Source: a virus. From it: a DNA stretch of 22,377 nt. Positions 1,560-21,057 of this stretch are shown in pieces. The first letter of the stretch is position 1. Each line of letters opens with the position of its first letter. A program made the translations under genes and the position numbers. The stretch lies in the IMG/VR virus record IMGVR_UViG_3300028388_003265, positions 1 to 22,377 of that record. One strand, written 5' to 3'. Below the pieces are notes generated by a model that saw nothing but the letters and a program-made list of their open reading frames with translations, searched no databases and had not been told where the DNA came from.

Positions 1560-1931
1560 ATGAATAAAGTTAGTAAAAAATTACAGAAAGCAATGAAAGA
1601 AATAGAAGATATCGCAAGGAAAAATGATATAATGGGGGTTATTGCCCTTGCCGACGGTGAGCAACATGGAGAATTTGGAAACTTTATAGACCTTCCCGAT
1701 TGGTCCAATGTTAAATTTACCCATATAGATGATGGAAGCTCAAGAGTAGACATAAAAGTCTATGGAAAATCGATGCCAACGGAGACAAATAAAACTGTCA
1801 ACGCTCTAGTTATTTTAAGGGACATAGTGGGTAATCAATATATGACACTCGATAAGCTTGTTAATATGGTTAAGGAGAAAGTTGATATTCAAGAAGACGA
1901 AGGGGAATTTATCCCAAAGACTGACCTTTAA
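1560..1931 (+). CDS. Hypothetical phage protein, 123 aa
   Basis: Not recognised. The ATG follows AAAAAGGGCC, a good Shine-Dalgarno. The product has a basic N-terminal helix (residues 1-22), a central GVIALADGEQHGEFGNFIDL segment that looks like beta strands and turns, and an acidic C-terminus. No membrane or signal sequence. Its stop codon overlaps the stop of the convergent gene 1928-3010 by 4 bp, so there is no room for a terminator between the two transcription units. Confidence 0.75.
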   Translation: MNKVSKKLQKAMKEIEDIARKNDIMGVIALADGEQHGEFGNFIDLPDWSNVKFTHIDDGSSRVDIKVYGKSMPTETNKTVNALVILRDIVGNQYMTLDKLVNMVKEKVDIQEDEGEFIPKTDL

Positions 1932-3010
1932 ATAATCGCTCTTCTTTTGGGATGCTGAGGGGCCAGAAAAACAAGTTTAACTTGCTCTAGCCCCTTACCG
2001 CATCTTTGCCATCTTACATGCGCCTTTTTATACCAGCTTTTGCCCTGTTCGAATGCCCTGACTTGGGTATAATTTAAATCTAGTTCTTTGTAAGGCAGTT
2101 CTGAAAAATGACTTTTTTCATATTCTCTTTTACTTTTTCTGGAAGAAAATTTAGCTATTTTGTCTTGGATTATCCCATTGCCAGAGGGGTTTGAAATGTA
2201 TGTCAACAGTGTTTCACAAAGAGGTATTATATTAGAAATAGTATTATCATAAAATTTTGTTAATTCGTAGTCTGAATTAACGCCGTCCCTTGGGTAGTCT
2301 GGTGTAAAAACATAAGTACCGCCTTTACAAAGTTTCTCACAATTACAATCATGCTTGTAAATATAGAAATACTCTCCATTCTGATCTACACATATAAAGA
2401 AGATGTCAATCAAGGCCTGAGGGGTTAAGTTATAATATACCCAGCAGTGTTTCATTTTTGAAAGATGGTCCCTGATAAACGCACATATGGGGCTTTTAGT
2501 TTTTAAAAATTCCTTGTTTATTCGATAAGAATCAGCAAACTCCCCTACTTCATTTAATATTTTTATTAAATTAACGCTAGGAATATAATTATACTCCTTA
2601 ATGCCGGCTTCGAGTAAAAGGGTTGCCAGATTAGATATTATATAAAAATTATTTGCATAATCTAGGTTGTCGGTAAATAAATTAGAGAACTTATTATCGT
2701 GATGAAATAAAATTTCAGCAAATTCGATCCTATTCTTTTCTATGTCCCAGAAACCACGCTGAAACTCTTTTTCGCTACTGTAACCGCCATGTTTATCTAC
2801 AAAGCTGGCCGCCACCGATATTGTCGCCGCTAAATCAACCCACTTTTTCCGTCTGTGAGGGGGAATTTTTACCTGATCGTGTCTATAGCTTAGTATTTGT
2901 TCGTGAAAAAATTTAGGAATAAAATTATTGATCATTTTAACCTCGGTTTTTAATTCGAGATTATCATAATGAAATTTATTTAAAATACGCACTAAGTAAA
3001 TAGTGCGCAT
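1928..3010 (-). CDS. Phage hypothetical protein with basic aromatic C-terminal tail
   Basis: A 360-aa soluble protein. The centre holds a Cys cluster (DCNCEKLCKGG) that could bind a metal. The C-terminus WYKKAHVRWQRCGKGLEQVK followed by LVFLAPQHPKRR resembles the HxVRGHWRxxxxGxxxxxxxWI(E/A)P tail found at the end of many uncharacterised phage proteins; that tail is the only recognisable part. Two starts are possible: the long ATG at 3010 has only AAGAAG directly adjacent, whereas an internal ATG at 2935 (residue 26) is preceded by GAGG at ideal spacing and would give 335 aa. It is the last gene of the leftward block but may have its own promoter at 3087-3113. Function unknown. Confidence 0.8.
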   Translation of the reverse strand: MRTIYLVRILNKFHYDNLELKTEVKMINNFIPKFFHEQILSYRHDQVKIPPHRRKKWVDLAATISVAASFVDKHGGYSSEKEFQRGFWDIEKNRIEFAEILFHHDNKFSNLFTDNLDYANNFYIISNLATLLLEAGIKEYNYIPSVNLIKILNEVGEFADSYRINKEFLKTKSPICAFIRDHLSKMKHCWVYYNLTPQALIDIFFICVDQNGEYFYIYKHDCNCEKLCKGGTYVFTPDYPRDGVNSDYELTKFYDNTISNIIPLCETLLTYISNPSGNGIIQDKIAKFSSRKSKREYEKSHFSELPYKELDLNYTQVRAFEQGKSWYKKAHVRWQRCGKGLEQVKLVFLAPQHPKRRAII

Positions 3011-3086
3011 CTTCTTTACGTCGTTCTAAAAAAAATTATCGCTAAATTTCCCATTCAGTTAATATATTTTTTTCAAACACGAGTCT

Positions 3087-3113
3087 TTTATAACTCAAGT
3101 TCTAGTCTGTCAA
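3087..3113 (-). promoter_or_regulatory. Leftward promoter candidate upstream of the 360-aa gene
   Basis: On the minus strand TTGACA (perfect -35, 3113-3108) is followed after 15 bp by TATAAA (5/6 -10, 3092-3087). The spacer is 2 bp shorter than optimal. It lies about 75 bp upstream of ATG 3010 and just beyond the end of the small lipoprotein-like gene, so it could give the last gene of the block separate expression. Confidence 0.4.
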
Positions 3114-3116
3114 ATT

Positions 3117-3281
3117 TTATTTGCTGTAGTTGTGCGTAAAAACTGCGATTATACAGATTGTAATATGTAAATAGAAAACATAATCCTTATATGGATTATG
3201 TTCACTAACGGTCGAGGCCATATAACAAGAAGAAATAAGAATAATCAAGAGAGTAATAAATTTTTTGCCTGATTTTTTCAT
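3117..3281 (-). CDS. Small lipoprotein-like membrane protein, 54 aa
   Basis: Reading leftward from ATG 3281, the product begins MKKSGKKFITLLIILISSC: a basic n-region, hydrophobic h-region and an ISSC lipobox with Cys19 as the predicted lipidated residue. A short polar stretch follows, then a second hydrophobic segment (YVFYLHITICIIAVF, about residues 34-48) and a polar end. AAGGA lies about 10 bp upstream inside the end of the preceding two-TM gene, only 4 bp away, so the pair is probably co-translated. Small phage lipoproteins include Rz1-type outer-membrane spanins and superinfection-exclusion proteins; neither is proven. A 10-bp perfect inverted repeat (3177-3202) lies within the coding sequence. 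Confidence 0.6.
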   Translation of the reverse strand: MKKSGKKFITLLIILISSCYMASTVSEHNPYKDYVFYLHITICIIAVFTHNYSK

Positions 3282-3285
3282 CTTT

Positions 3286-3531
3286 CTATTTCCTTGAAAA
3301 ATAAAATCCTAGTATAAAAGGAAGAAAATTACATATTGCTTGATGTGTCTTCTCGTACACCATTTCACCCTGAGGGTCTTTATTGAATGCGAAAAAAATA
3401 ATTGATATGGAGTATATAACTGCAAATCCTACCATTATTTTATTAGCAAACTCCAATTTTTGAGAGGGACTAACCCTCTCCTGTAAAATTGATTTTTTTT
3501 CCGGTAAGTCTTTATTAAATTCGACAAACAT
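3286..3531 (-). CDS. Small two-TM membrane protein, 81 aa
   Basis: Residues about 32-49 (IMVGFAVIYSISIIFFAF) and 65-79 (AICNFLPFILGFYFS) are hydrophobic helices. The N-terminal 30 residues are charged and cytoplasm-like, and the protein ends in SRK. This size and topology fits a holin, an accessory membrane protein or an exclusion factor, but there is no family-defining motif. The ATG begins directly after the TAA of the upstream 70-aa gene and the downstream lipoprotein-like gene starts 4 bp after its stop, so the three form a translationally coupled set. No endolysin gene is visible nearby, which weakens a lysis interpretation. Confidence 0.7.
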   Translation of the reverse strand: MFVEFNKDLPEKKSILQERVSPSQKLEFANKIMVGFAVIYSISIIFFAFNKDPQGEMVYEKTHQAICNFLPFILGFYFSRK

Positions 3532-3744
3532 TTAGGCCCCACTAGGAAGAGTTAACTCAATTCTCTTTCCGTTGCGAGATTCTATATAGATAGAGTCTCC
3601 ATTCTGTATTTTATTTAATAGCATTTCTCCAAGATTTACACATTGAGCAAGAACAGAACCACAGTCGTTATCTTTTAAGACATGGGAAATATTTTCTAGC
3701 TGGCTTAGTGTTTTTTTTGGTAGCTCTAGTGTTTCGCTATTCAT
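3532..3744 (-). CDS. Hypothetical protein, 70 aa
   Basis: Not recognised. A helical N-terminal half (residues about 8-45, including SQLENISHVLKDND) is followed by a short beta-rich C-terminus (GDSIYIESRNGKRIELTLPS). No membrane segment. Its start overlaps the stop of the upstream 58-aa gene by 8 bp (ATGAATAG) and its stop touches the next ATG, so it is part of a coupled leftward operon. The helix-plus-hairpin shape is compatible with a small regulatory or antitoxin-like protein, but this is only shape. Confidence 0.7.
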   Translation of the reverse strand: MNSETLELPKKTLSQLENISHVLKDNDCGSVLAQCVNLGEMLLNKIQNGDSIYIESRNGKRIELTLPSGA

Positions 3745-3913
3745 AATTTAATCCTTTTTGATTTAGAAAAGTATTTGTTGCGTTAGCTTTTATTTTATCA
3801 ATTTTATCTTGAATTTCCAGATCAGAACTCTCCCAAGGCAAATCATTTAACTCCAACGCATATTCAATAAATTTTATTAACTGTGATTTTTGCCTTTTGC
3901 CTAGGTTATTCAT
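3737..3913 (-). CDS. Hypothetical protein, 58 aa
   Basis: A short gene from ATG 3913 (MNNLGKRQKSQLIKFIEYAL) to TAG at 3737. It overlaps the upstream 210-aa gene and the downstream 70-aa gene by 8 bp each, filling exactly the gap between them, which is strong context evidence that it is real. The product is helical and charged, with one LPWESSDLEIQDKI segment. Not recognised; no signal or membrane segment. Confidence 0.65.
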   Translation of the reverse strand: MNNLGKRQKSQLIKFIEYALELNDLPWESSDLEIQDKIDKIKANATNTFLNQKGLNYE

Positions 3914-4538
3914 AGAAACATTTCCCGATGCTTAAAGAAGGGGCCTCAGTTATTTTTAAATTAGAATGGTCTTCCATGGACTTTATAACCCATTCTTCTT
4001 TATCTTTCAGGGTCGGCAATGGGATATCATCAAGGAGCTTTTTTCTGATACCCTCATTTTTGTAATTATCGTATTTGTCAAAATTTATTAATTGGGTCAT
4101 TCGCCCAGATGCTTCCGTAAGTTCGATATAAGGACTAAATATAAATTTACCGTCTATTTTTTTTACAAAGGAAGATTTTATAAGTTTGTATTTTTCCGAG
4201 GCATAAACAACCATTAGAATAGATTTTTTCTCAAAATGTAGCCTGATTTCCCTGTCAGGGTCTTTTTTTTCCATCGGTAAGCTCCATGACTCACATACTA
4301 AAAAGTATGTTTTAGCTCTAAAAAAGCCCATTAGCATAGATACATATTTTAAATCCTGTTCCTTTTCTTCTTCATTTTTGAAAAATCCTTGGACATGGAA
4401 ACATTTATTGTCAAATGTATTAAAAAGTATCGTCCACGGCATCTGACCATTGATATCCATGTCCACTTTTGCGACATTTAGAACATCGTCTATCTTGTCT
4501 TTTAATTCATCGGGTATTTCTAGCTCTTTCTTTTCCAT
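3906..4538 (-). CDS. Hypothetical protein, 210 aa
   Basis: Not recognised. A soluble alpha/beta protein with an acidic N-terminal helix and a central region of alternating strands (DREIRLHFEKKSILMVVYAS, then KLIKSSFVKKIDGKFIFSPY). AGGTG lies 5 bp before ATG 4538. It starts 7 bp after the Rad52-like gene and overlaps the 58-aa gene at its end. Position next to a single-strand annealing protein would suit a recombination or replication accessory role, but no catalytic motif is visible and no function is claimed. Confidence 0.75.
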   Translation of the reverse strand: MEKKELEIPDELKDKIDDVLNVAKVDMDINGQMPWTILFNTFDNKCFHVQGFFKNEEEKEQDLKYVSMLMGFFRAKTYFLVCESWSLPMEKKDPDREIRLHFEKKSILMVVYASEKYKLIKSSFVKKIDGKFIFSPYIELTEASGRMTQLINFDKYDNYKNEGIRKKLLDDIPLPTLKDKEEWVIKSMEDHSNLKITEAPSLSIGKCFYE

Positions 4539-4545
4539 TGCGCAC

Positions 4546-5271
4546 CTACATATTTTTTAGTTGTTTTAATTGCGTTATTTTTGATCTAACAAAGTCAATA
4601 AATTGTTTTTTCTGGTCAGGGTCCCTTCTGGCAAACTCTCCGATGTCGTTTAGACCCATTTCTTTGCACAACGATACAAGAACTTGGGAATGCTGTTCTT
4701 TTGGGAAATTTTGACGATAAGTATAAATTTGCTTATGCATTTCTTTGTTTAGTTGCTCGGCGTAAGGAATGTTGTTTCTTTTGGTATTGTTATTGGTATT
4801 GTTGTTATTTTTATTGGAATTATTGTTTTTGTTGTAGTTATTATTATTGTTTTTATTGTAACCATTGTTTTTTTGTTTAGAAGGAGCTTGAACATTTCCT
4901 TTATAAACTTCATTTGCCACGCCTAACCAAGATGCGCATTTACTTAGGCAATCTGTTCTTGCCGACTTGTAAACATCTCCAGCATTTGATTTTTTATTCT
5001 CCTTGGGTTCAGCGTATCCAGAATTTTCCACTTGAATAGTTTTGCCACAAATTTCTACTGTTAATTTACCGTGAAACATGACCCCATTGCCTATTTTTTC
5101 ATAGTTTCCCTCTAGTTTCCATGACCCTAGGCCTAAAGCATCATTTAGCCTCTCGACTATATATTGAGCTTTGACGCTTGTTAGAGTAAATCCTCTGCTA
5201 ATGTCGGAGCTTAGCGCCTCTGGTGCGAAGGGAGCTTTTAACTTCTCGTAAACTACCTTTAAATCTTCCAT
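4546..5271 (-). CDS. Rad52/Rad22-family single-strand annealing protein
   Basis: Residues 1-125 match the Rad52/22 annealing domain: the family's N-terminal LKAPFAPEALS entry, an ALGLGSW turn, beta strands through GNGVMFHGKLTVEI, and the diagnostic helix DVYKSARTDCLSKCASWLGV followed by ANEVYKG. Such phage proteins form rings that anneal complementary single strands during recombination-dependent replication. Residues about 135-167 are an almost pure Asn/Lys linker, followed by a C-terminal helical domain (residues 170-241) that probably contacts a partner. AAGG precedes ATG 5271. It is second in the leftward operon, 2 bp after the HTH gene. The RusA-like resolvase at 9374 would complete a recombination set. 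Confidence 0.88.
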   Translation of the reverse strand: MEDLKVVYEKLKAPFAPEALSSDISRGFTLTSVKAQYIVERLNDALGLGSWKLEGNYEKIGNGVMFHGKLTVEICGKTIQVENSGYAEPKENKKSNAGDVYKSARTDCLSKCASWLGVANEVYKGNVQAPSKQKNNGYNKNNNNNYNKNNNSNKNNNNTNNNTKRNNIPYAEQLNKEMHKQIYTYRQNFPKEQHSQVLVSLCKEMGLNDIGEFARRDPDQKKQFIDFVRSKITQLKQLKNM

Positions 5272-5273
5272 GA

Positions 5274-5483
5274 CTATAGCCTTTTAATTTTGTGGTTTAA
5301 ATACGCTTTAAAGTCGATACTAAGACCTTTGCATATTTTCTTAACCTCATCTTCACTAATATTTAACACGCCATTTAGATACATATTGAGGCGTGTATAG
5401 TGCATTTTAACTTTTTTGGCCGCCGCTCTTTGAGTAATTTTTTCCGATACTAAAAAGACTTTTAACAGATGATGATTTTTCAA
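5274..5483 (-). CDS. Cro/cI-size HTH transcriptional regulator
   Basis: A 69-aa protein in which residues about 14-35 (KITQRAAAKKVKMHYTRLNM) form a helix-turn-helix like the HTH_3/Cro-C1 domain, followed by NGVLNISEDEVKKICKGLSI, the typical third and fourth helices. It begins at TTG 5483 with AAAGGA six bases upstream; no ATG is available in frame. As first gene of the leftward operon, with a palindrome over its promoter at 5537-5554, it is likely autoregulatory and may also control the divergent initiator gene at 5794. It lacks a dimerisation or cleavage domain, so it is more Cro-like than cI-like. Confidence 0.82.
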   Translation of the reverse strand: MKNHHLLKVFLVSEKITQRAAAKKVKMHYTRLNMYLNGVLNISEDEVKKICKGLSIDFKAYLNHKIKRL

Positions 5484-5522
5484 TGTTTTTCCTTTGTTTT
5501 GTTTTTAATTATTTCACTGACT

Positions 5523-5551
5523 AATTTATGATTCTGTTATTGATATGTCAA
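5523..5551 (-). promoter_or_regulatory. Leftward promoter of the HTH/Rad52 operon
   Basis: On the minus strand TTGACA (perfect -35, 5551-5546), a 17-bp spacer and TAAATT (4/6 -10, 5528-5523) lie 40 bp upstream of TTG start 5483. The -35 is embedded in the operator-like palindrome, as expected for a self-repressed regulator gene. Confidence 0.55.
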
Positions 5552-5554
5552 TAA
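5537..5554. promoter_or_regulatory. Operator-like palindrome (candidate HTH binding site)
   Basis: TTATTGA-TATG-TCAATAA is a perfect 7-bp inverted repeat with a 4-bp centre, covering the -35 box of the leftward promoter. Size and position match a Cro/cI-type operator. That the adjacent HTH protein binds it is inference. Confidence 0.5.
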
Positions 5555-5669
5555 ACAAGTCAATCAACAATTTAAAAAAAATAAACACAGAAAAACGTGA
5601 CCTTTAAAAGGTATTTTATTTGAGGTTATTTACTTGTTGTGGGGGGGGTGGTAGATAAATAGACCAGTC

Positions 5670-5699
5670 GCCTGCTTGTTCCGCAAAAAACAAGCAGGC
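5670..5699. repeat. Perfect 11-bp inverted repeat hairpin
   Basis: GCCTGCTTGTT (5670-5680) and AACAAGCAGGC (5689-5699) form a GC-rich 11-bp stem with an 8-nt loop, conspicuous in otherwise AT-rich noncoding DNA. On neither strand is it followed by a clean T-run, so a simple terminator is not favoured. It may be a transcript structure, a protein binding site or an origin-associated element. Confidence 0.6.
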
Positions 5700-5793
5700 A
5701 TTGCATAATCACGCCAATGACCATTTCTTTATCTAAAGATAGCATCTTATAAAACAAAGATAAAAAAATGGCAAGGGAAAATAAGGGATTCTC

Positions 5794-6480
5794 ATGTCAG
5801 AAAACTCAACTCTTTTAAGCCAAATAAAAAACAACTTAAAATTAGATATTTTTAAAGATAATAAACTAAGGATATTTTATATAGATATCGCTCTGGATTG
5901 CATTGAGGCAGACAGCGTAAAGGTTAATAGGCGAAAAATGTCGGCAAAATATAAAGAGTTTAGCGACCCGATAACAGAGAGAAACGTAAGAACCTTTATA
6001 AGTAAATTGGAAAAAAATGGCCTTATTAATCAATTTAAAATAGGGAAAGATGTTTTTTTGAGACTAGAGATTATCATTGGAAGCGTCCCAATGAGCGCCC
6101 TGACAAGCGTCCCAACTAAAAACGGCCAGAGTCCAATAATAATAGGCGATTATAAAAATGACGCAAAGAAAAGCGTCCCAACCGCTAACCCAACAAGCGT
6201 CCCAACTAAAAACGGCCAGAGTTCAATGATAATAGGCGATTGTAAAAATAACGCAGATGAAAGCGTCCCAACAATCAACCCAATAAGTGTCCCAACCCAA
6301 CCCAAGACCATTGAAGAGACATACACGGAGCATCAAAGGCCAAAAAAGGCCCGTAGAATTCAGTTCAATATAGATCAAGAAGTTGAATGGTACGACATAA
6401 ATGGGAGAATTATCGTAGAAAACGAAGAAAAAACCGACAAAAACGAACAAACACAGGACAAGCGTAAAAATATATGCTAA
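5794..6480 (+). CDS. Winged-helix replication initiator candidate with in-gene iterons
   Basis: A 228-aa protein with three parts. Residues 1-95 look like a winged-helix domain, including RKMSAKYKEFSDPITERNVR and FISKLEKNGLI (recognition helix) and a FLRLEII wing strand. Residues about 96-170 are a repeat region in which SVPT recurs, encoded by 90-bp DNA repeats. Residues 171-228 are a charged tail. AAGGGA precedes the ATG. Early position, divergence from a repressor-like gene, and repeats inside the coding sequence match the lambda O arrangement, where an initiator binds iterons within its own gene. A replisome-organiser role is inference; a plain wHTH regulator is the main alternative. Confidence 0.65.
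   Translation: MSENSTLLSQIKNNLKLDIFKDNKLRIFYIDIALDCIEADSVKVNRRKMSAKYKEFSDPITERNVRTFISKLEKNGLINQFKIGKDVFLRLEIIIGSVPMSALTSVPTKNGQSPIIIGDYKNDAKKSVPTANPTSVPTKNGQSSMIIGDCKNNADESVPTINPISVPTQPKTIEETYTEHQRPKKARRIQFNIDQEVEWYDINGRIIVENEEKTDKNEQTQDKRKNIC
6081..6296 (+). repeat. Six iteron-like repeats, candidate replication origin
   Basis: The 11-mer AAGCGTCCCAA starts at 6081, 6105, 6171, 6195 and 6261, with a one-mismatch copy (AAGTGTCCCAA) at 6285. Spacing alternates exactly 24, 66, 24, 66, 24 bp, because a 90-bp unit (6105-6194) is repeated (6195-6284) and begins a third time. All copies have the same orientation and encode SVP(T/M). AT-rich DNA with an inverted repeat follows from 6481. The geometry is that of an initiator-bound origin inside the initiator gene; a protein-level repeat is the alternative. 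Confidence 0.6.
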
Positions 6481-6616
6481 AATTCTTTTCATTCTTTCAA
6501 CCTATAAAATAATATATAGGTGGTAGATATAAAAAAAGTAGGGGATGCCGGCGACGCCCCCCAAGCGATCGCAAGGCAATTCCCGTTAAGCTTTTTTCAT
6601 ATGCATCTACACAATC

Positions 6617-6651
6617 AACCCTGAGTTTAGGGGGTTATATTATTTTTTTTT
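6617..6651 (+). terminator. Possible rho-independent terminator after the initiator gene
   Basis: AACCC (6617-6621) pairs with GGGTT (6632-6636), and the stem is followed by an AT-rich stretch with an uninterrupted T-run ending at 6651. The stem is short, so termination would be weak. It lies about 140 bp past the initiator stop codon. Confidence 0.4.
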
Positions 6652-6747
6652 ACTTCAATTCAGTTCTGTGCCTCAAACCAATACAAAACAAAATTTAATT
6701 ATAATTAATTCATAAATGAAAATAAAAAGAAAAAAAGGAGAGTATTA

Positions 6748-6795
6748 ATGATAAAACCTTGTAATTTTATACAGTATAGTGTATATAGGCCATAG
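6748..6795 (+). CDS. Possible 15-aa leader peptide, in frame with the next gene
   Basis: ATG 6748 has one of the strongest Shine-Dalgarno sequences in the window (AAAAAAGGAG, 6731-6740) but the frame (MIKPCNFIQYSVYRP) stops at TAG 6793-6795. After that stop the same frame stays open through DIFVWPRENT into the gene at 6826. It may be a leader peptide, a start region cut by an amber mutation, or a fortuitous ORF; the promoter-like sequence at 6759-6787 inside it argues for the last. Confidence 0.3.
   Translation: MIKPCNFIQYSVYRP
6759..6787 (+). promoter_or_regulatory. Promoter candidate for the 6826-8329 gene cluster
   Basis: TTGTAA (4/6) at 6759-6764, an exact 17-bp spacer and TATATA (4/6) at 6782-6787 lie 38 bp upstream of ATG 6826. 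Both boxes are imperfect and the surroundings are AT-rich, so this is moderate support only. Confidence 0.35.
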
Positions 6796-6825
6796 GATAT
6801 TTTTGTTTGGCCAAGGGAAAACACA

Positions 6826-7098
6826 ATGTTAGAAAAACACGCTTATGAGTCGTTGATGAGAACGTTCTTAAACGATTTTGACGATAAATATACAGAAAGT
6901 AGAATTAGTTTAATCTATTCTATGATTAATAAATTAACACCTAAAGACACAAACGATCTAATGGTAGAATTACTATGCAGATACAACAAGCACCAGCTAC
7001 CAACTCCCAAAGAGTTTATTACACTTGCTTATATTATGTACCCATTCGCTAAAAAAGAATCGAAAAGATTAACACCTCATAAAATAAGAGTTGTTTAA
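6826..7098 (+). CDS. Small early protein, possibly helicase-loader-like (90 aa)
   Basis: A helical 90-aa protein with AAGGGA eight bases before the ATG. The pattern of helices ending in RYNKHQLPTPKEFITLAYIM resembles the N-terminal module of phage helicase loaders such as G39P, in which helices are followed by a (F/L)PPTxxEI(x)xxA segment. Its position immediately after the initiator candidate and origin-like repeats fits such a role. The similarity is a faint pattern and the protein could be unrelated. Stop TAA overlaps the next ATG by one base. Confidence 0.65.
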   Translation: MLEKHAYESLMRTFLNDFDDKYTESRISLIYSMINKLTPKDTNDLMVELLCRYNKHQLPTPKEFITLAYIMYPFAKKESKRLTPHKIRVV

Positions 7099-7334
7099 TG
7101 TATAAATATGAACTAGATGTCTATTTTGAAAAATCGCCATGGTTAGACCCAATAAATACAACAACTAGAAGAAATTATTTATTTCACTTAGTGGAAGAAT
7201 GGGATCTAGACAAATTCAATAAGATAATGCAAAAATGCAAGCCGCTAAAAAAAAACAAAATAAAAGATCTCTTATTAAACGATATTATTAATGAGATAGA
7301 AAAAGTTGGGGCCGGCTATGGATGCAATAATTAA
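7098..7334 (+). CDS. Hypothetical protein, 78 aa
   Basis: Not recognised. The start overlaps the upstream stop (TAATG), implying coupled translation. The product is helical with an aromatic N-terminal half (YFEKSPWLDPINTTTRRNYL) and a lysine-rich centre. The next gene starts inside its last 17 bp, so it belongs to a compact early operon. Confidence 0.7.
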   Translation: MYKYELDVYFEKSPWLDPINTTTRRNYLFHLVEEWDLDKFNKIMQKCKPLKKNKIKDLLLNDIINEIEKVGAGYGCNN

Positions 7335-7596
7335 ATTAAATAAAATACTAATAGAATGCTTTGAGAATCCTCTGGATAAGCACAGAATAGAATTTATCTC
7401 TGGAGAGTTGTCAGGAGAGTCAGAAGATCACTTAAATAAATTATGTAAAGAAATTTTAATTAACTTTGATTACAGCGATACAATCACAACTAGAGATATA
7501 TTTTCTATAAGTGAATCAATTCCAATTACAATAAATCCAGATTACTTAATTGATTTTTCACAAGAACAAGAAAAGGAAGCAACCGCTTCATTTTAA
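7318..7596 (+). CDS. Hypothetical protein, 92 aa
   Basis: Not recognised. The frame is open from TTG 7306, but ATG 7318 is the more likely start and gives MDAIIKLNKILIECFENPLD at the N-terminus. It overlaps the upstream gene by 17 bp. The protein is acidic and helical without cysteine motifs or membrane segments. It is followed 14 bp later by the next start with its own AAGGG Shine-Dalgarno. Confidence 0.7.
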   Translation: MDAIIKLNKILIECFENPLDKHRIEFISGELSGESEDHLNKLCKEILINFDYSDTITTRDIFSISESIPITINPDYLIDFSQEQEKEATASF

Positions 7597-7610
7597 AAGG
7601 GTAGTTTTTG

Positions 7611-9359: not shown

Positions 9360-9373
9360 GCTAAGAGAGAAAA

Positions 9374-9769
9374 TTGTTTAAAGTAATCGACCTTGAAGGC
9401 ATTAAATTAAAATCATTGAATGATAAATTTACGGTTTCACGGAAATCAAAAAATATTTGTTTAAAAAAAGAATATGAAGATTTCAAAAAGATTTTGCTTT
9501 ACTCAATTGGAGAGTTAGAGACACCGCTAGAGCCGCCTTATTTTGTTTACATTTATCTGGAAACTTATTTAGACATAGATAACCCATTAAAGCCGATTTT
9601 GGACACTCTAGAGGGTCCGGCAATTCAGAATGATAAACAGATTAGAAGATTACTAATCGACAAAATACCACGCAAAAGAGGGCATCCGTCGATGCTTCAA
9701 GTTTATGTGGGGACCATGAAGGGGGTGGACCATTGGAAGCTTATTTTTCCTGTAATAAATTTAGCGTAA
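9374..9769 (+). CDS. rusA: RusA-like Holliday junction resolvase
   Basis: The 131-aa product has the RusA signature: an N-terminal LxxLNDKFTVSRKSK strand region, then YLDIDNPLKPILDTLEG with Asp67, Asp69, Asn70 and Lys73 at the positions of the RusA DxDNxxK metal site, and QNDKQI with Asp87 as the third acid (usually DDxQI; here NDKQI keeps the second Asp). RusA homodimers resolve four-way junctions in phage recombination and replication intermediates. It starts at TTG 9374 behind GAGAG, directly next to the TnpB fossil, so the insertion may have replaced its original leader. Its end overlaps the next gene by 37 bp. Confidence 0.85.
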   Translation: MFKVIDLEGIKLKSLNDKFTVSRKSKNICLKKEYEDFKKILLYSIGELETPLEPPYFVYIYLETYLDIDNPLKPILDTLEGPAIQNDKQIRRLLIDKIPRKRGHPSMLQVYVGTMKGVDHWKLIFPVINLA

Positions 9770-10314
9770 GGTTGAAAGCTAAAAACTTTACTCCTAAAGA
9801 AGAGCAAATAATAAGGGAAGCGGCTTATTTTATGTGCTACGCTCTAGGGTCCCCTTACTTTAAAAAGTTTTGCCTTAACTACGAATACAAAATAAAAACT
9901 TGGTACTGGGATGGATTAATTAAGAAATACTATTACAAAAAATATAGAGGATTTCACGAGACTAATGGAAAGTCTCAAGTCGAAGTTTATAACCATTTAA
10001 TGAGTGGTCAGGAGATGAAACCGGAAGAGACGGCCCCAGACCAGGAAGCTGATATGTTTTTAAAAATTGATAGGTCTGATGGGGGCAATGTTATTGGGTA
10101 CACTTATACAGGAAGCATCTGGCAATATATTTATCAGTGGGTTTTAGAGGAAAAAAGCGCCCGGTATGTTGCTGGAAATCTTGCTCACGAGTGGGTTCAC
10201 AAGTGCGGATATTCTCATTCTAAAAATTCACCTACTTTTAGAAAGGCCCACAAATACCATACTGTTAGTTACGCCGTAGGCAGATATGTAAGGGATTTTT
10301 TAAAAAAAAGGTAA
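9733..10314 (+). CDS. HExxHxxGxxH metallopeptidase-like protein
   Basis: Residues 152-162 read HEWVHKCGYSH, an exact metzincin zinc site (HExxHxxGxxH: His152, Glu153, His156, Gly159, His162). The preceding helix SARYVAGNLA fits the active-site helix. No signal peptide is present, so the enzyme would act in the cytoplasm, be packaged, or be released on lysis. The N-terminal 140 residues are rich in Tyr/Trp/Lys and not recognised. The start is probably TTG 9733 inside the RusA gene, behind GGGGGTGG; the next in-frame ATG lies at 9832. A Met-turn typical of metzincins is not evident, so other zincins remain possible. It lies between RusA and the small terminase. Confidence 0.75.
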   Translation: MEAYFSCNKFSVRLKAKNFTPKEEQIIREAAYFMCYALGSPYFKKFCLNYEYKIKTWYWDGLIKKYYYKKYRGFHETNGKSQVEVYNHLMSGQEMKPEETAPDQEADMFLKIDRSDGGNVIGYTYTGSIWQYIYQWVLEEKSARYVAGNLAHEWVHKCGYSHSKNSPTFRKAHKYHTVSYAVGRYVRDFLKKR

Positions 10315-10339
10315 AGATTAAAAAGAGAAGAGCTTAATC

Positions 10340-10738
10340 ATGGAAAAGAAAAAAAAGAAGGTAGGAAAACCGACTAGCTATAAAAAAAGATATTGTAAAG
10401 ATATCATCGATTTTTTCAATATTGAACCGGTAAACAAAAAAGGGCTACCGGTTAAACCGCCCATGTTTGGAGCATTTGCCAGAAAGATCGGTGTTTATCA
10501 CCAAACAATGTTGGACTGGGTAAAAAAGTATCCAGAATTTAACGAGGCCTATAAAGAAGCAAAAAATATGCAACAAGAAATTATAATTGTTGGTTGCTTG
10601 TTAAATGCCTATAGTGCTTCATTTGGTCGGTTCACCATGAAAAATATTTCTGACTGGAGAGACAATATTGATACTCATGTTTCTACAGACAAAGGTGGCT
10701 TTAAATTAGCTTACTCTTTAAAAGAGGGTGCTAAATGA
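10340..10738 (+). CDS. terS: Terminase small subunit
   Basis: The 132-aa product has a basic N-terminus (MEKKKKKVGKPTSYKKRYCK), a helix-turn-helix at about residues 48-73 (FGAFARKIGVYHQTMLDWVK) and the EFNEAYKEAK helix typical of phage terminase small subunits/gp3-like packaging proteins. It recognises the packaging site and recruits the large subunit. The C-terminal part ends in a flexible segment. AGAAGAG precedes the ATG. The stop overlaps the terL start by 4 bp (ATGA), which supports the pairing. Confidence 0.87.
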   Translation: MEKKKKKVGKPTSYKKRYCKDIIDFFNIEPVNKKGLPVKPPMFGAFARKIGVYHQTMLDWVKKYPEFNEAYKEAKNMQQEIIIVGCLLNAYSASFGRFTMKNISDWRDNIDTHVSTDKGGFKLAYSLKEGAK

Positions 10739-12066
10739 TCCCAGCTTTAACAGAATTTGACCCCTATGCTATTAGATGGCAAGGGGAGATTATAAACGAT
10801 ATTAGAAACCAATACGATTATACTAAGGGAACCCACGAGCTTTTATTAAGTGGGTCCGTGGGAAGTGCCAAGAGTGCCTTCATGGCCCATGTTGGAATAA
10901 CACATTGTCTATTTTTCGAAAAAGCAAAATGTTTAGTAACTAGAAGGTCAAGGCCGGATCTAGAAGAAACTTTGTGGCGTGAGTTACTAGATCACATAGA
11001 GGGATGTCTAACAGAGGGTCATGACTATGAAGTAAATAACGCAAAAATGAAAATTTCATTCTCGAATGGTTCGGAAATTATTACCCGAACTTTTGCAGAT
11101 GGGAGATATAAAAAGTTCAGATCGCTAATACTCTCCATGGCATTAATAGAAGAACTTACTGAAAACGATGATATGGAGTTTTATAAAGAAATTAGAATGA
11201 GAGTAGGCAGGGCGGTTCACGTTCCAGAACATTTAATAATCGCCGCCACCAATCCAGCAGATCCATTGCATCCAGCTTACAAGTATTTTATTAAGTCTAA
11301 GAATCCGTTAAGGCACGTTAAATATAGCATTACTTCCGACAATCCTTTTTTACCCTCTAGTTACATAGAAGGTCTTAAAGAGTCTATGAGTCCCAGAGAA
11401 GCGAGAAGAATGCTCGAAGGGGAATGGTTGGAACTCTCCAGAGATGTTATTTATTACAACTATTCTAATGAAAAAAATTTCAGGGATTATAGAAAAGAGA
11501 TAGATCCCAAATACCCAATTGACCTAATGTTTGATTTTAACATTGCCGCAAATAAACCCATGTCGGCCGGTGTCGGGCAGTATATAGATGGTGTATTTCA
11601 CATTATAAAAACATTTATTATAGAAGGTGCTAGGACTCTAGATATTATGGAAGAAATGGAGAGTTATGGAATATTTAACCATAAATCTCTCTACAGGGTA
11701 TTTGGTGATGCGACTGGAAACGCAAGGGATACAAGGAGTAAAAGAAGCGATTATAATATAATTGAGGACTATCTTAGAAATCTAGTGAGGTATCAAATGA
11801 AAGTACCGGCAAGTAATCCGCCGGTAAGAACCAGACATAATTTAATGAATGCCCTTTTTGAGAATGAAAAAGGGGAGATTAGGTTTTATATATATAAAGA
11901 TGCCGAGGAAGCTGATGAGGGTTTTAGACTGACTAAGCTACTGCCTCGGTCTAATTATGTCGAAGACGATAGTTTTAAATTTCAACATATAACAACTAGT
12001 TGCGGCTATATGTGCCATGCCTGTGTTGTGGGGAATACAAGAAAAAGTAGGGTTGTGCAACTTTAG
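10735..12066 (+). CDS. terL: Terminase large subunit
   Basis: A 443-aa ATPase-nuclease that pumps DNA into the prohead. Walker A is GSVGSAKS (residues 40-47), the Walker B/catalytic pair is in LSMALIEEL (Glu139/Glu140), and the coupling motif is IIAATNP (168-174). The RNase H-like nuclease begins with DLMFDFN (Asp267) and has FGDATGN (Asp325). The C-terminal element that normally reads (H)xxDALxY is here QHITTSCGYM, so the third acid of the nuclease is not in its usual place; Asp411/Asp412 just before may substitute. Length is normal. A 165-bp gap with two parS-like sites follows. Confidence 0.92.
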   Translation: MIPALTEFDPYAIRWQGEIINDIRNQYDYTKGTHELLLSGSVGSAKSAFMAHVGITHCLFFEKAKCLVTRRSRPDLEETLWRELLDHIEGCLTEGHDYEVNNAKMKISFSNGSEIITRTFADGRYKKFRSLILSMALIEELTENDDMEFYKEIRMRVGRAVHVPEHLIIAATNPADPLHPAYKYFIKSKNPLRHVKYSITSDNPFLPSSYIEGLKESMSPREARRMLEGEWLELSRDVIYYNYSNEKNFRDYRKEIDPKYPIDLMFDFNIAANKPMSAGVGQYIDGVFHIIKTFIIEGARTLDIMEEMESYGIFNHKSLYRVFGDATGNARDTRSKRSDYNIIEDYLRNLVRYQMKVPASNPPVRTRHNLMNALFENEKGEIRFYIYKDAEEADEGFRLTKLLPRSNYVEDDSFKFQHITTSCGYMCHACVVGNTRKSRVVQL

Positions 12067-12147: not shown

Positions 12148-12173
12148 TAAAATGTTCCACGTAGAACATTTTA
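12148..12173. promoter_or_regulatory. parS: parS-like site A (26-bp near-perfect palindrome)
   Basis: TAAAATGTTCCAC (12148-12160) is followed directly by GTAGAACATTTTA (12161-12173), a 26-bp palindrome with a single mismatched pair. The core TGTTCCACGTAGAACA (12153-12168) differs by one base from the perfect copy at 12195. Bacterial chromosomal parS sites bound by ParB have the form TGTTYCACGTGRAACA. Confidence 0.78.
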
Positions 12174-12194
12174 TTAATAAATTCACGGTCTTAA

Positions 12195-12210
12195 TGTTCC
12201 ACGTGGAACA
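12195..12210. promoter_or_regulatory. parS: parS site B (perfect 16-bp palindrome)
   Basis: TGTTCCACGTGGAACA is a perfect palindrome that fits the chromosomal parS consensus. Its centre is 42 bp from that of site A, about four helical turns, so both face the same side of the DNA. It lies 22 bp before the portal start codon, in the gap after the large terminase. No ParA or ParB gene is visible in the window. Confidence 0.88.
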
Positions 12211-12231
12211 AATTTTTTAAAGGAATAAAAA

Positions 12232-13629
12232 ATGGCGTTAATAGATGACACTAGAAAACTAACCAGCTATATAAACGAGAATAAGCGATATATTAATTAT
12301 AATTACGAGCTTTTTGACATTTATGAGGGAAATTTAAGACCCTATGTTGAGAAGATTCTTAAAGATAGTTTATCGGAAAACTACTTTAACCAGATAAGGC
12401 ATAGAATTTACCCAATCAATATTCTTAAAAGAATCATAGACAAAATTTCTAAGTCTTATTCACATAAACCTACAAGAGAAGCATCCAGCGACCAAAACAT
12501 TTTAGAGTTTTATGAGACTGCTTATATGTTTGATCAGAAAATGAATTTTGCTGATGAATTTGCAAACTTATTCAAAGGGTATGCATTGGAACCATATATT
12601 CAAAACGGAATTCCATCTTTGAGAGTCCTACCATTTGATAGGTTTCTGGTCCAGAGTGATAATATCATAGACCCCACGGTGATGACTCTTTTTTATAAGT
12701 ATTTGGGCAAAATTCCCAAGAACAAAAACGGCCAGATGGTAAGTGTAGATTTATGGTTCGTATATTCCCCTATGGAATTTGTGGCAATTGATGAAGATGG
12801 GGACATTGTCCCAGATTATATGGTGGATGGCGACGGCAACCCATTAAGCGGTGAGAACCCTCTGGGATTTATCCCTTTCTATTATGGAAATAGATCTTAT
12901 TATAAGATACTACCGACCCAAGACACTGACACTTTAGCGCTTGCCAAATTGCTTCCTGTTCAAATTTCCGATTTAGCTGGAACAATCCTTTTTCAGTGCT
13001 TTTCTATATTTTATGGTGTTGATGTCGATTCCGAAAATATGATTATGTCTCCTAATGCTTTTTGGGGTCTTAAAAGTGATCCCCAGAGTGGACACGCTCC
13101 ACAGGTGGGGACCATTACACCGAGCGCAGACGTTAACAAAGTTCTAGACTTTATCAAAGACGTTTTTAGCACGTGGATGGAGTCCCGAGGGATAAGGGTA
13201 GGGGCAATGTCAAGAACACAGGGCGATTTTAATATGTCCGGTATATCTAAAGTAATTGACGAAATGGACACCTACGAAACAGTTAAGAAGCAAATCGAAT
13301 TCTTTAAAAAAGATGAATATAATTTCTGGCAACTACAAAAAAACATGCATAACTATTGGCTGGAAAGTGGGGAGCTAAAGGGGATGTCTAGGCTACCCGA
13401 TAGCTGGGAGGTCATAACAGAATTTGACGAACCTAAGCCAGTGGTTTCAAGAAATGATGAGATCGATTATACGATAAAAGAAAGGGAAGGGGGGATTATC
13501 TCCCAAGAAACGGCAATAAAAAAACTTTATCCAGACTGGAAAGACAAGGAAGTCAAGGAAGAAATAAATAAAATTAATTCAGAGCAATTTGGAGACATAG
13601 GGGGGACCGATGGCATGGCAGAGGTTTAA
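12232..13629 (+). CDS. Portal protein
   Basis: The 465-aa product has the size, position (directly after terL) and sequence style of SPP1 gp6-like portal proteins. The N-terminus has helices and the conserved NILKRIIDKISKSY segment; it is followed by a FADEFANLFKGYALEPYIQ region, strands with LRVLPFDRFLVQSDN, and a helical stem/crown region toward the C-terminus. Twelve copies form the DNA channel at one capsid vertex and bind the terminase. AAAGGA lies in the loop of a possible T6A/TA6 hairpin 7 bp upstream. The last 20 bp overlap the next gene. Confidence 0.86.
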   Translation: MALIDDTRKLTSYINENKRYINYNYELFDIYEGNLRPYVEKILKDSLSENYFNQIRHRIYPINILKRIIDKISKSYSHKPTREASSDQNILEFYETAYMFDQKMNFADEFANLFKGYALEPYIQNGIPSLRVLPFDRFLVQSDNIIDPTVMTLFYKYLGKIPKNKNGQMVSVDLWFVYSPMEFVAIDEDGDIVPDYMVDGDGNPLSGENPLGFIPFYYGNRSYYKILPTQDTDTLALAKLLPVQISDLAGTILFQCFSIFYGVDVDSENMIMSPNAFWGLKSDPQSGHAPQVGTITPSADVNKVLDFIKDVFSTWMESRGIRVGAMSRTQGDFNMSGISKVIDEMDTYETVKKQIEFFKKDEYNFWQLQKNMHNYWLESGELKGMSRLPDSWEVITEFDEPKPVVSRNDEIDYTIKEREGGIISQETAIKKLYPDWKDKEVKEEINKINSEQFGDIGGTDGMAEV

Positions 13630-14113
13630 AGTCAATCTTAGAAAAGGACTTGGAAAGGCCCAAAGACAGGCGATAGGGCTGGAAATTATCCAGCATATTA
13701 AAAAGAGGACTTCCGAGGGAAAAGACAAGACTGGCAACCCATGGAAGGGCAAAGCAGGGGAATACTCGAAAGCGTATAGAAATAGCTTGGATTTTAAGAT
13801 TGCAAAAAGATCGGGGGGAGTTGTTAACCTAGAACTTTCCTCTGAGATGATGAACTCTATAAAGGTCCTATCGAACAGGTCGGGAGAGTTGTTGATTGGA
13901 TATGATAAAAGCGACTCTAAATTAAACGGAAAAGTAGAGGGCAATCGATTAGGCACTTATGGGCAAAATAAGGCAATTCGGGGCAAAAAAAGGGACTTTT
14001 TGGGCGTAGAACGTGCAAAATTGACCGAAATTCAAGACAAATATGACTTTTCTCGAGAAAAAAGACAGACAGTTCAGGAGAGAATAAATAAAATTAGTTC
14101 AATATTAGGGTGA
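13610..14113 (+). CDS. Virion morphogenesis / head-tail completion protein
   Basis: A 167-aa basic protein resembling phage virion-morphogenesis (gpG/gpS-like) tail-completion proteins: GLEIIQHIKKRTSEGKDKTG with NPWKG after it, strand segments VVNLELSSEMMNSIKVLSNR, a GELLIGYDKS strand, and the family-like RDFLGVERAKLTEI near the C-terminus. These proteins act at the neck or tail end during assembly. The ATG follows AGGGGGGACCG and lies inside the end of the portal gene. The family call rests on motif style and position. Confidence 0.65.
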   Translation: MAWQRFKVNLRKGLGKAQRQAIGLEIIQHIKKRTSEGKDKTGNPWKGKAGEYSKAYRNSLDFKIAKRSGGVVNLELSSEMMNSIKVLSNRSGELLIGYDKSDSKLNGKVEGNRLGTYGQNKAIRGKKRDFLGVERAKLTEIQDKYDFSREKRQTVQERINKISSILG

Positions 14114-14117
14114 CAAA

Positions 14118-14624
14118 ATGTCTATAGAAAAACAACTTAACGACATTATAACAAAGCGCATTGATGCAATATCAAAAAATGCTGTCACAGATCAGGTTTT
14201 AAAAAAAGTCGGGGAAGGAGCAACGCAACAAATTATAAAAAGGACTCGACTAGGTAAAGGAGTCCGGCCGGTAGGGGGGTCAGTTTTTAATTTACTGCCT
14301 CTAAAAAATTCGACTGTGGACTATAGGGACCGATACGATTTTAATCTATCTAACTTCACGACTCCAACTAGATCCAACTTAACAGCAACCGGCCAGCTAT
14401 TAGATAGCATTACCTACAGAGTCTTTAGGGCTGGAGGAATCAAGGGTATAGAACTCTTCTTTAAGGAAAATAGAAGGAGGGAATTAAGTGGGGGACCAGC
14501 GAGGACTACACACAAAGAAATAAACAGGCACGTAGAAAAAGGGGGTAGACCATTTTTCTACTTGGCCGATTTTGAAATAGAAAAATTAAAGGGAATTATT
14601 TTTCAGGAGCTATCAGGAAACTGA
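14118..14624 (+). CDS. Second head-tail completion-like structural protein
   Basis: A 168-aa protein with features of HK97 gp10/virion-morphogenesis relatives: an N-terminal helix, SNLTATGQLLDSITYRVFRA (the L..TGxLxxSI pattern of the family), a beta strand GIKGIELFF, and RPFFYLADFEIEKLKGIIFQ near the end. AGGGTGA precedes the ATG, 4 bp after the upstream stop. It may be a diverged relative of the preceding gene product, making a tandem pair; one could act at the head end and the other at the tail end. Confidence 0.62.
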   Translation: MSIEKQLNDIITKRIDAISKNAVTDQVLKKVGEGATQQIIKRTRLGKGVRPVGGSVFNLLPLKNSTVDYRDRYDFNLSNFTTPTRSNLTATGQLLDSITYRVFRAGGIKGIELFFKENRRRELSGGPARTTHKEINRHVEKGGRPFFYLADFEIEKLKGIIFQELSGN

Positions 14625-14658
14625 TACAAAAGCTAAACAATATTTATTTTGATTTACT

Positions 14659-14676
14659 TTCTAAATGGAGTTAGAA
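14659..14676 (+). promoter_or_regulatory. Shine-Dalgarno in a hairpin loop before the scaffold gene
   Basis: TTCTAA (14659-14664) and TTAGAA (14671-14676) form a perfect 6-bp stem whose 6-nt loop ATGGAG carries the GGAG Shine-Dalgarno. The start codon follows at 14678. The loop would present the ribosome binding site as single-stranded. Confidence 0.45.
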
Positions 14677-14677
14677 T

Positions 14678-15298
14678 ATGAGTGATCCAGTCGATAAAAA
14701 CCAGTTAGGAACTGGCGATGAACCTAATCTTGTAGATAAGGACACAAAGACAAATGATCTTGATCCTGATTCATTAAAGCAAGATGAAACCGTTTCTTAT
14801 AAATCTCATCAAAAATTATTGAATCAGTATAAAAGCACTCAATCGAGACTTAAAGAGCTTGAAGCTAAAGAGCAGGAGCGAGAAGAAAGCGAGCAATTGA
14901 AGCGTGGCGAATATGAAAAGGTGATGCAGTTAAAAGAAGAGAAAATAAAGACTCTCCAAACCACGATTGAGCAAAAGCAGCAAGAAGAGCTAGAGGGCAA
15001 AAAGCTAATGGCCTTTATGGATAAGTTAGGCGGCAAGATATCGGACAACGATTATCTTAGCTTAATAGACATAGATTCTATAGCTGTAGACCCCGATACT
15101 GGCGAATTAGATCAACTTTCTTTGGAAAAAGAGGTTGATAGATTCTCTAAAAAGCACTGGAGAGTAATAGAGAATCAGAAGCCAAAGGCCCCAACAAGTG
15201 TTGGACACCTTGGAGGTCGTCCAAATGCTAAAAGGTCCTTGAAAGAAATGACTAGAGAGGAACTTAGGGCAAATTATATTAAAGGGAATTTTTCATAA
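14678..15298 (+). CDS. Scaffolding protein
   Basis: A 206-aa highly charged protein directly upstream of the major capsid gene. Residues 1-45 are acidic and disordered, residues about 45-115 are a long coiled coil (QYKSTQSRLKELEAKEQERE and onward), and the C-terminal 40 residues are basic (GGRPNAKRSLKEMTREELRA), the usual capsid-binding end. This matches Gp20/DUF4355-like phage scaffolds, which organise prohead assembly and leave afterwards. No protease gene is visible nearby, so scaffold is probably released intact. Confidence 0.82.
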   Translation: MSDPVDKNQLGTGDEPNLVDKDTKTNDLDPDSLKQDETVSYKSHQKLLNQYKSTQSRLKELEAKEQEREESEQLKRGEYEKVMQLKEEKIKTLQTTIEQKQQEELEGKKLMAFMDKLGGKISDNDYLSLIDIDSIAVDPDTGELDQLSLEKEVDRFSKKHWRVIENQKPKAPTSVGHLGGRPNAKRSLKEMTREELRANYIKGNFS

Positions 15299-15306
15299 AT
15301 AATATT

Positions 15307-15323
15307 TATTCAGGGAGTGAATA
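15307..15323 (+). promoter_or_regulatory. Shine-Dalgarno in a hairpin loop before the capsid gene
   Basis: TATTC (15307-15311) pairs with GAATA (15319-15323), leaving the 7-nt loop AGGGAGT with the Shine-Dalgarno. The ATG is at 15325. A nearly identical 17-nt element precedes the tail chaperone gene at 21081. Confidence 0.5.
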
Positions 15324-15324
15324 G

Positions 15325-16167
15325 ATGGCCGATAAAATAATAGATGGAACGGAAGTTTCAGTCACAAGAATGGATTATATTGTCGAAACAGTTCAGAGAG
15401 AACTAGCGGCCCAAGCAAAGGTTAGGCCCCTAGTTACTGATGTTTCTCAATTTGCAGTTAAGGGAAATAGATCAATATCTTTTCCTAAATTAGGGTCTTT
15501 AGAAGTCCAGAAATTGGCAGAAGGACAGGCCGCAGATGCTCAAGCTATTGCCGCCACTGAGGACCAACTTGAGTTAGATCAACTTGCTTCAGTTCAGTTC
15601 ATCATGAAAAAACAATCTGAACTTCAATCAAGATTGATGTTCGAGGAAGCAATGATTTCAAGGGCCGCTTCAGCTCATGCCCGACAAGTTGACATTGACA
15701 TAATTGAAGCTATGGCATCGGGGGGCGCATCGGCCAATGATGTTACATATGATGCAACTGACATTGAAGATAATATCCTTGATGTTGTTACTAAGCTAGA
15801 TGCTGCCAATGCTCCAGAGGAAGGTAGATTTCTTCTTTTTAGACCAGCTCAGAAGAAACTTATTTTAGGAGTTGCCAATTTTGTTCAAGCTGAGCGTTAT
15901 GGCTCAAATATTCCGATCATGCAAGGTGAAATTGGTATGGCCTATGGCATTCGGTTTGTAATGTCAAATATTTCAACAACAACTTTTGTTGACGGTGTTA
16001 TGGTTGGATTTCAAAGAGAGGCCTTGGCACTAGGGTTTCAAATGGACCCCATGGTTGACGAAGAAAAAGATATTAAATGGGGAGCAGGGTCTAAGCGCAT
16101 CGCCGTCGATCAGCTTTATGGCTATAAAACGCTTCAAAGCGGTAATTTAATATCTGTAGTTAGCTAA
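15325..16167 (+). CDS. Major capsid protein (HK97 fold)
   Basis: The 280-aa product follows the scaffold gene and has the expected course of an HK97-fold coat protein: an N-terminal helix, an E-loop-like VKGNRSISFPKLGSLEVQKL with GQAADAQAIAATEDQ, the spine-helix segment SELQSRLMFEEAMISRAASA with HARQVDIDIIEAM, and a P-domain/A-domain part including RFLLFRPAQKKLILGVANFV. The C-terminus KRIAVDQLYGYKTLQSGNLI is the typical closing strand. Codon use is regular and the start is strong. The protein forms the icosahedral shell. Confidence 0.88.
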   Translation: MADKIIDGTEVSVTRMDYIVETVQRELAAQAKVRPLVTDVSQFAVKGNRSISFPKLGSLEVQKLAEGQAADAQAIAATEDQLELDQLASVQFIMKKQSELQSRLMFEEAMISRAASAHARQVDIDIIEAMASGGASANDVTYDATDIEDNILDVVTKLDAANAPEEGRFLLFRPAQKKLILGVANFVQAERYGSNIPIMQGEIGMAYGIRFVMSNISTTTFVDGVMVGFQREALALGFQMDPMVDEEKDIKWGAGSKRIAVDQLYGYKTLQSGNLISVVS

Positions 16168-16178
16168 GGAGTTTTAAT

Positions 16179-16379
16179 ATGTCGGTAGGTTCGAATGTAA
16201 CACCAAGGGCAGTTATTGCCAGCTCCTACAAGGAACTTGAAAGGAGAATGGCGATGATATCGGCCAAGCGTGGGACCTACATTAAATTCCATAGTATTGC
16301 AAGGGACCCTATATCAAAAAAGTGGGTCGCTTGGTTTGATTATGAAAACAAGTTAACAATTTTTAAGGGTGAGGATTAA
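16179..16379 (+). CDS. Small hypothetical protein after the capsid gene, 66 aa
   Basis: Not recognised. AAGGAG precedes the ATG, 11 bp after the capsid stop. The product is short, basic and strand-rich (RGTYIKFHSIARDPISKKWV, then AWFDYENKLTIF). Its place between capsid and decoration-type genes suggests a minor head protein, but there is no motif to support this. Confidence 0.7.
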   Translation: MSVGSNVTPRAVIASSYKELERRMAMISAKRGTYIKFHSIARDPISKKWVAWFDYENKLTIFKGED

Positions 16380-16380
16380 A
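16362..16380 (+). promoter_or_regulatory. Shine-Dalgarno in a weak hairpin loop before the 145-aa gene
   Basis: TTTAA (16362-16366) pairs with TTAAA (16376-16380); the 9-nt loop GGGTGAGGA contains the GAGG Shine-Dalgarno and ATG 16382 follows. The AT-only stem is weak, but the arrangement repeats that at 14659, 15307 and 21081. Confidence 0.3.
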
Positions 16381-16381
16381 T

Positions 16382-16819
16382 ATGGGATATCCAAGGAATG
16401 AGGATTTTCTTATTAAGTATGATTACGATTTTGCCGCCTCTGGGGGGGCAGTCTCTTCAATTTCTCTAAGCTCAGACGTAAATAGTTTGGGCGAAGGGGT
16501 TATTGTTAAGCGGCTACGTGTCATCATGAAGACCGCTTTTACATCGGCCGGTACTCCAACGGTAACAATCGGGAACACGACCGACGTTGACGGCTATATG
16601 GCCGATATTTACGCCCTAGGGGCCGCTAGTGCCGATGCTGTGATCAATTCAAGTGCTGTGGCCGGTGCTTTAATTTGGGATGACACAAATGACCATGAGA
16701 TTTTTTACAGAATTGATTCCACGGCCGCCAATCAGGACCTAGTTTTAACCATTGGAACCGCTGCATTAACTGCCGGTAAGATGGAAATTTATTTAGAATG
16801 TGCTTATGATCCTGACTAG
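16382..16819 (+). CDS. Capsid-associated beta-rich protein, 145 aa
   Basis: A beta-sandwich-like protein rich in Ala, Gly, Ser, Thr and Asp (VKRLRVIMKTAFTSAGTPTV, then DLVLTIGTAALTAGKMEIYL). No signal peptide or membrane segment. Size, composition and place two genes after the major capsid protein fit a head decoration or head fibre protein. This is inferred from style; no family motif was recognised. A strong hairpin follows its stop. Confidence 0.7.
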   Translation: MGYPRNEDFLIKYDYDFAASGGAVSSISLSSDVNSLGEGVIVKRLRVIMKTAFTSAGTPTVTIGNTTDVDGYMADIYALGAASADAVINSSAVAGALIWDDTNDHEIFYRIDSTAANQDLVLTIGTAALTAGKMEIYLECAYDPD

Positions 16820-16849
16820 ACAGAAGTGACAAAAGTGTACTGAAATTGA

Positions 16850-16879: not shown

Positions 16880-16891
16880 CTTAAAAAAATC

Positions 16892-18243: not shown

Positions 18244-18246
18244 TAT

Positions 18247-21049: not shown

Positions 21050-21057
21050 AGTTAATC

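Follow-up and report, generated by a model that had tools for sequence, protein, structure and literature searches.

A probable in-gene replication origin in an unclassified phage, with a putative DNA-binding domain and its repeats exchanged together in a close relative

The virus record analysed here (IMG/VR IMGVR_UViG_3300028388_003265; all 22,377 nt of it are referred to as the window) contains a 228-aa open reading frame that carries six direct repeats in its interior. We consider it probable that this gene encodes a replication initiator and that the repeats, located in its linker-coding part, are the cognate iterons, which would constitute an in-gene origin similar to those of lambda O and SPP1 gp38, albeit with an initiator matching none of the libraries searched. 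Both DNA binding and origin activity are what we infer from this arrangement. The interpretation is supported by synteny, by constraint on the repeats at the DNA level, by a joint swap of the putative binding domain and the repeats in a sister phage, and by helix-destabilised DNA downstream.

Five copies of the repeat, AAGCGTCCCAA, are exact and the sixth, AAGTGTCCCAA, differs by a single mismatch, with all copies on the same strand and start-to-start spacings of 24, 66, 24, 66 and 24 bp (Table 1). The exact positions, 6081–6295, bear out the sequence-only reading, which had described six same-direction copies, one of them mismatched, in a 24/66 rhythm within the gene. No copy with at most one mismatch exists elsewhere in the record, and at up to two mismatches 10 occurrences were counted versus 4.45 expected, a number reached in none of 100 shuffles. 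As read from the sequence, AAGCGTCCCAA is without dyad symmetry. All six repeats are read in one frame, (xxA) AGC/T GTC CCA, encoding S-V-P. The 24/66 rhythm is partly the product of one duplication event, because 6103–6296 is made up of tandem 90-bp units, and the two full units (6103–6192 and 6193–6282) are 88% identical. Prior to this duplication, the gene would hold four repeats spaced 24, 66 and 24 bp, and the independent facts left after the duplication are the repeat pairs with their diverged 13-bp spacers. The suggestion that the paired spacing reflects dimer-by-dimer loading is not supported, as half of the rhythm comes from the duplication and the sites of the sister phage are spaced 66 and 33 bp.

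Three results agree in indicating that the repeat word is constrained at the DNA level. Firstly, when codons at the six places were resampled according to the phage's own usage, at least 5 column mismatches were obtained in all 100,000 trials (mean 15) versus 1 observed, in a test that treats the copies without regard to the 90-bp duplication; the sixfold identity of the copies is unexpected from codon usage alone. Secondly, changes between the duplicated units occur at 0/22 repeat positions versus 16/68 spacer positions (p=0.009) and, in a second unit comparison, at 1/22 versus 8/14 (p=0.0007), both p values being optimistic, as the repeat boundaries were picked from the same sequence. Thirdly, the codon preceding SVP is GGA, ACA, AAA, ACA, GAA and ATA in the successive copies (G, T, K, T, E and I), with a third base that is always A.

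The strongest new evidence for an initiator with cognate iterons comes from the sister phage, L008, found on a viral contig of 26.5 kb and encoding a terminase 91% identical to that of the window. By blastn, the window and L008 are 93% identical over 1928–5782, 94% over 6374–7597, 91% over 9370–12008 and 97% over 12150–21749, and the first two of these blocks enclose the exchange segment listed in Table 1. The corresponding L008 gene (4107–4721) encodes 204 aa, and BLASTP detects no significant match between the two N-terminal domains. AAGCGTCCCAA is absent from L008 at up to one mismatch; in its place, the unrelated word AAAAAGGTCATGA occurs three times without mismatch in the L008 gene, at 4437, 4503 and 4536 (66 and 33 bp apart). 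These are the only copies in the L008 record, and AAAAAGGTCATGA is absent from the window at the same threshold. This 13-mer contains the palindromic TCATGA, but is not palindromic as a whole. The sequences flanking the three copies are unlike each other, so the L008 repeats are not simple duplicates. This phage, the only close relative, has replaced the entire repeat set, and the putative binding domain and the in-gene repeats were exchanged jointly, as expected for an initiator and its iterons, whereas the 39-aa tail and the downstream DNA were retained across the swap. Scans for a third allele of the gene found none, leaving two known alleles.

Table 1. Coordinates of features in the window.
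Feature	Position	Strand	Evidence or remark
Leftward gene, ERF-like by eye only	4546..5271	-	Formal matches only to a PHROG named 'exonuclease' and to families of unknown function
Divergent Cro/CI-like HTH regulator	5274..5483	-	HTH_3, E=2.4e-7
Structured leader, two stems, upstream of start codon	5640..5785	+	z = -3.4; diverged copy in L008
Exchange segment	5783..6373	+	No L008 DNA similarity (blastn) except 77%-identical leader end; flanks 93-94%
Initiator-like gene (228 aa) with an HTH/winged-helix-like domain at the N-terminus, a linker that bears the repeats and a conserved tail at the C-terminus	5794..6480	+	ORF list
Putative DNA-binding domain, aa 1-94	5794..6075	+	Different domain in L008, 29% identity in forced alignment
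Repeat 1 AAGCGTCCCAA	6081..6091	+	Exact
Tandem 90-bp duplication	6103..6296	+	90-bp period, 2.2 copies, 87% matches
Repeat 2 AAGCGTCCCAA	6105..6115	+	Exact
Repeat 3 AAGCGTCCCAA	6171..6181	+	Exact
Repeat 4 AAGCGTCCCAA	6195..6205	+	Exact
Repeat 5 AAGCGTCCCAA	6261..6271	+	Exact
Repeat 6 AAGTGTCCCAA	6285..6295	+	1 mismatch
Conserved C-terminal tail, aa 190-228	6361..6480	+	34/39 identical to last 39 residues in L008, retained despite N-terminal swap
Second structured element, 3' of gene	6500..6610	+	z = -4.75; -5.2 in L008
Least stable DNA of record, candidate unwinding element	6681..6800	.	Nearest-neighbour stability and AT profile
90-aa gene, helicase-loader position (lambda P / SPP1 gp39)	6826..7098	+	By position only; 99% identical in L008
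RusA-like Holliday-junction resolvase	9374..9769	+	Pfam E=6e-6, above cutoff
Terminase large subunit, anchor for finding relatives	10735..12066	+	91% identical in L008

Consistent with the earlier remark that the protein family was not a recognised one, no significant family was found for the 228-aa protein in Pfam, PHROGs, the phage collection, viral contigs or PLSDB plasmids, and no O-like initiator profile (e.g. phrog_345) from PHROGs or Pfam matched above noise. Residues 1–94 match phrog_428, 'replication initiation protein', weakly (E=0.018). The gene had also been described as winged-helix, a description that is weakly supported by Pfam CggR_N matches, which fall below the cutoff but at the same location in both alleles, and by a weak profile match to a chromosomal HTH ORF. 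However, the structure model of the domain, of moderate confidence (pLDDT 65), is helical (residues 23–39, 46–53 and 62–75) and has no wing, and a fold search against the PDB using this model yielded nothing significant, such that a winged-helix fold is at most weakly suggested. A full-length structure model was discarded (pLDDT 35).

Protein searches for relatives of the initiator found none in phage or plasmid records (PLSDB included), and among viral contigs only L008 itself was recovered, matched by the L008 initiator query. At the DNA level, matches to the leader pattern besides L008 are located in tail-fibre-like genes, a shorter leader pattern gave 41 stretches, none of which but L008 has leader features, and the other two matches of a tail-codon pattern are unrelated. 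In support of the initiator reading, a more distant relative, L012 (TerL 50%), has a truncated ORF that lies upstream of the packaging genes and matches O-like/DnaD-like replication families (7e-14 to 2e-8). A host search via the terminase returned a single match, a Bdellovibrio MAG with 46% TerL identity, which is too distant to name a host and has no related initiator. An HMM of the two domains, run on 369 genomes of the phylum of this MAG, gave one match, a 98-aa HTH-like ORF (E=2.8e-4, for one genome) sitting among chromosomal-looking genes with no repeats nearby. As a separate observation, the Bdellovibrio MAG contig JAGIAF010000036.1 (L023) encodes a 309-aa ORF (811–1740) with a repeated SKLQAGSK peptide mid-protein; it has no family match and is possibly another in-gene repeat arrangement.

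AT-rich DNA had also been noted after the gene, and indeed no 80-bp stretch anywhere in the record is less stable than the one beginning at 6691, and no 120-bp stretch less stable than that beginning at 6681. This unstable DNA lies ~390 bp downstream of the last repeat, and the AT-rich peak is retained in L008 at about 4920–4980. The DNA immediately right of repeat 6 is 52–58% AT. Cumulative GC skew, which the sequence-only reading had proposed as a check, does have a local minimum near 5250–5750, but this coincides with a change in gene direction and is therefore not independent evidence of an origin.

The gene is also flanked by two structured elements, for which an Rfam search gave nothing credible. 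The leader copy adjoining the L008 gene is 67% identical by pairwise alignment, and among the 39 stem pairs compared between the window and L008, 25 are unchanged, 3 have one-sided changes, 8 carry double compensatory changes and 3 are broken, the stems being maintained by compensatory changes between the alleles. L008 carries two tandem leaders (3766–3914 and 3955–4100), the upstream one being of the recipient type with 2 broken pairs. Furthermore, GGTGGTAGATA is common to the leader (5647) and the post-gene element (6519). The leader could function in translation control, in antitermination or as part of the origin. It is conceivable, though doubtful, that the binding domain of an orphan initiator, the in-gene iterons and the structured leader form one exchangeable cassette in a distinct type of replicon, with the leader participating in initiation (e.g. 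as a primer transcript or in copy control) and the tail and unwinding region being shared.

The surrounding gene order is lambda-like, with a leftward operon containing the Cro/CI-like gene, followed by the rightward initiator-like gene, the 90-aa gene, the RusA-like gene and the terminase genes; the initiator-like gene thereby occupies the place of O in lambda. The 90-aa gene has no family match in Pfam or PHROGs, and its comparison with the L012 ORF yielded nothing useful. No other initiator candidate was seen in the window, although both phage records are incomplete, at 22 and 26.5 kb, and another replication module may sit outside. Two further observations concern neighbouring genes. The ERF-like leftward gene includes low-complexity repeats (4787–4876) encoding Asn/Lys runs, and these arrays differ between the phages (about 2906–2958 in L008). 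Between the RusA and terminase genes, a rightward 193-aa ORF (9733–10314) without a PHROG or Pfam match encodes HEWVHKCGYSH, which resembles a metallopeptidase active site.

Gene O of lambda and the Stx phages contains 4 or 6 iterons, with an AT-rich tract next to them (PMC7466680). The window is similar to lambda O/oriLambda and to the Stx phages P27 and 933W in carrying candidate direct iterons midway through the putative initiator gene, in its early-operon place by a repressor/Cro switch and in a helicase-loader position directly downstream (PMC7466680; PMC6022878). The lambda O-like arrangement originally claimed for the window is supported for the in-gene iterons, whereas the unstable DNA is located 3' of the gene rather than directly beside the last iteron, and the repeat is an 11-mer lacking the 18-bp hyphenated dyad of lambda. 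Likewise, the protein has no sequence match to O families and its constant C-terminal part is a short tail only. In lambda O, the N-terminal half sets specificity while the C-terminal part is constant, a trait with which the L008 joint swap would be consistent. Furth and Yates reportedly described lambda/phi80/82 hybrids with changed O specificity in 1978, a precedent for such a swap. SPP1 gene 38 harbours oriL, which comprises direct repeats and an AT-rich unwinding element, and the helicase loader gp39 participates (PMC6316719). By its anatomy, the window shares the direct repeats and would share the in-gene origin and the AT-rich unwinding element, but searches of Pfam, PHROGs and the phage collection did not link the protein to the G38P type by sequence. 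SPP1 also has its own DnaB-type helicase, gp40, and a second origin, oriR, whereas neither such a helicase nor a second array was seen in the window. Among iteron plasmids (RepA/RepE/Pi type), a winged-helix-type initiator binds direct repeats, so the general principle is alike; their repeats lie beside the gene instead of inside it, and no PLSDB plasmid matched. The resemblance to lambda O and SPP1 gp38 is one of anatomy, and membership is not supported by a family match, by a dyad in the repeat or by adjacent unstable DNA.

Other functions were considered for the same features. The protein could regulate early-operon transcription or immunity, with the repeats serving as operators inside its own gene, in which case the swap alters the immunity type rather than the origin type. 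The gene heads the rightward operon and adjoins a divergent Cro/CI-like gene, its weak fold leads are transcription-factor HTHs, and swaps of a domain plus its sites are also typical of immunity regions. However, these sites are about 290–500 bp into the gene instead of at a promoter, inspection of both strands around the repeats revealed no promoter-like site, the window offers no alternative candidate for an initiator, and the unstable downstream DNA is retained in both phages. We regard a regulatory function as unlikely.

The repeats could also exist for the sake of the protein, with SVPT linker units (KKVM in L008) being kept for the protein and the DNA identity left over from a recent duplication. 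The 90-bp tandem duplication is clear and its units repeat at the protein level too, but the fixed third bases where the residue before SVP varies, the divergence of spacers and not of repeats, and the unlike flanks of the three L008 repeats all render this quite improbable. Since partition systems, too, may combine an HTH protein with direct repeats, a centromere-binding protein and a parS-like array of an extrachromosomal prophage might be envisioned. With no ParA-type ATPase found adjoining the gene, and with in-gene sites being unusual for partition, this seems very improbable indeed.

Under the preferred interpretation of an initiator with in-gene iterons, several initiator molecules would load on the iterons, strain the adjoining DNA and help to melt the unstable stretch downstream. 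The C-terminal tail, probably in concert with the protein from the following gene, would then recruit the host replicative helicase. The binding domain and iterons would together make up a specificity cassette that can be exchanged, leaving the tail and unwinding region in place.

This natural cassette swap is the most useful feature of the proposed in-gene origin. Between two otherwise near-identical phages, a putative binding domain and its recognition words have changed together, so that the specificity of initiator for iterons could be tested directly by swapping the two alleles. The lock-and-key exchange appears to be of the kind known from phage lambda, here built from unrecognised parts in an unclassified phage, and the proposed in-gene origin would belong to a lineage with replication proteins that match no library. 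The pair also bears on why phages exchange origins, for example as an escape from incompatibility or from prophage-based inhibition.
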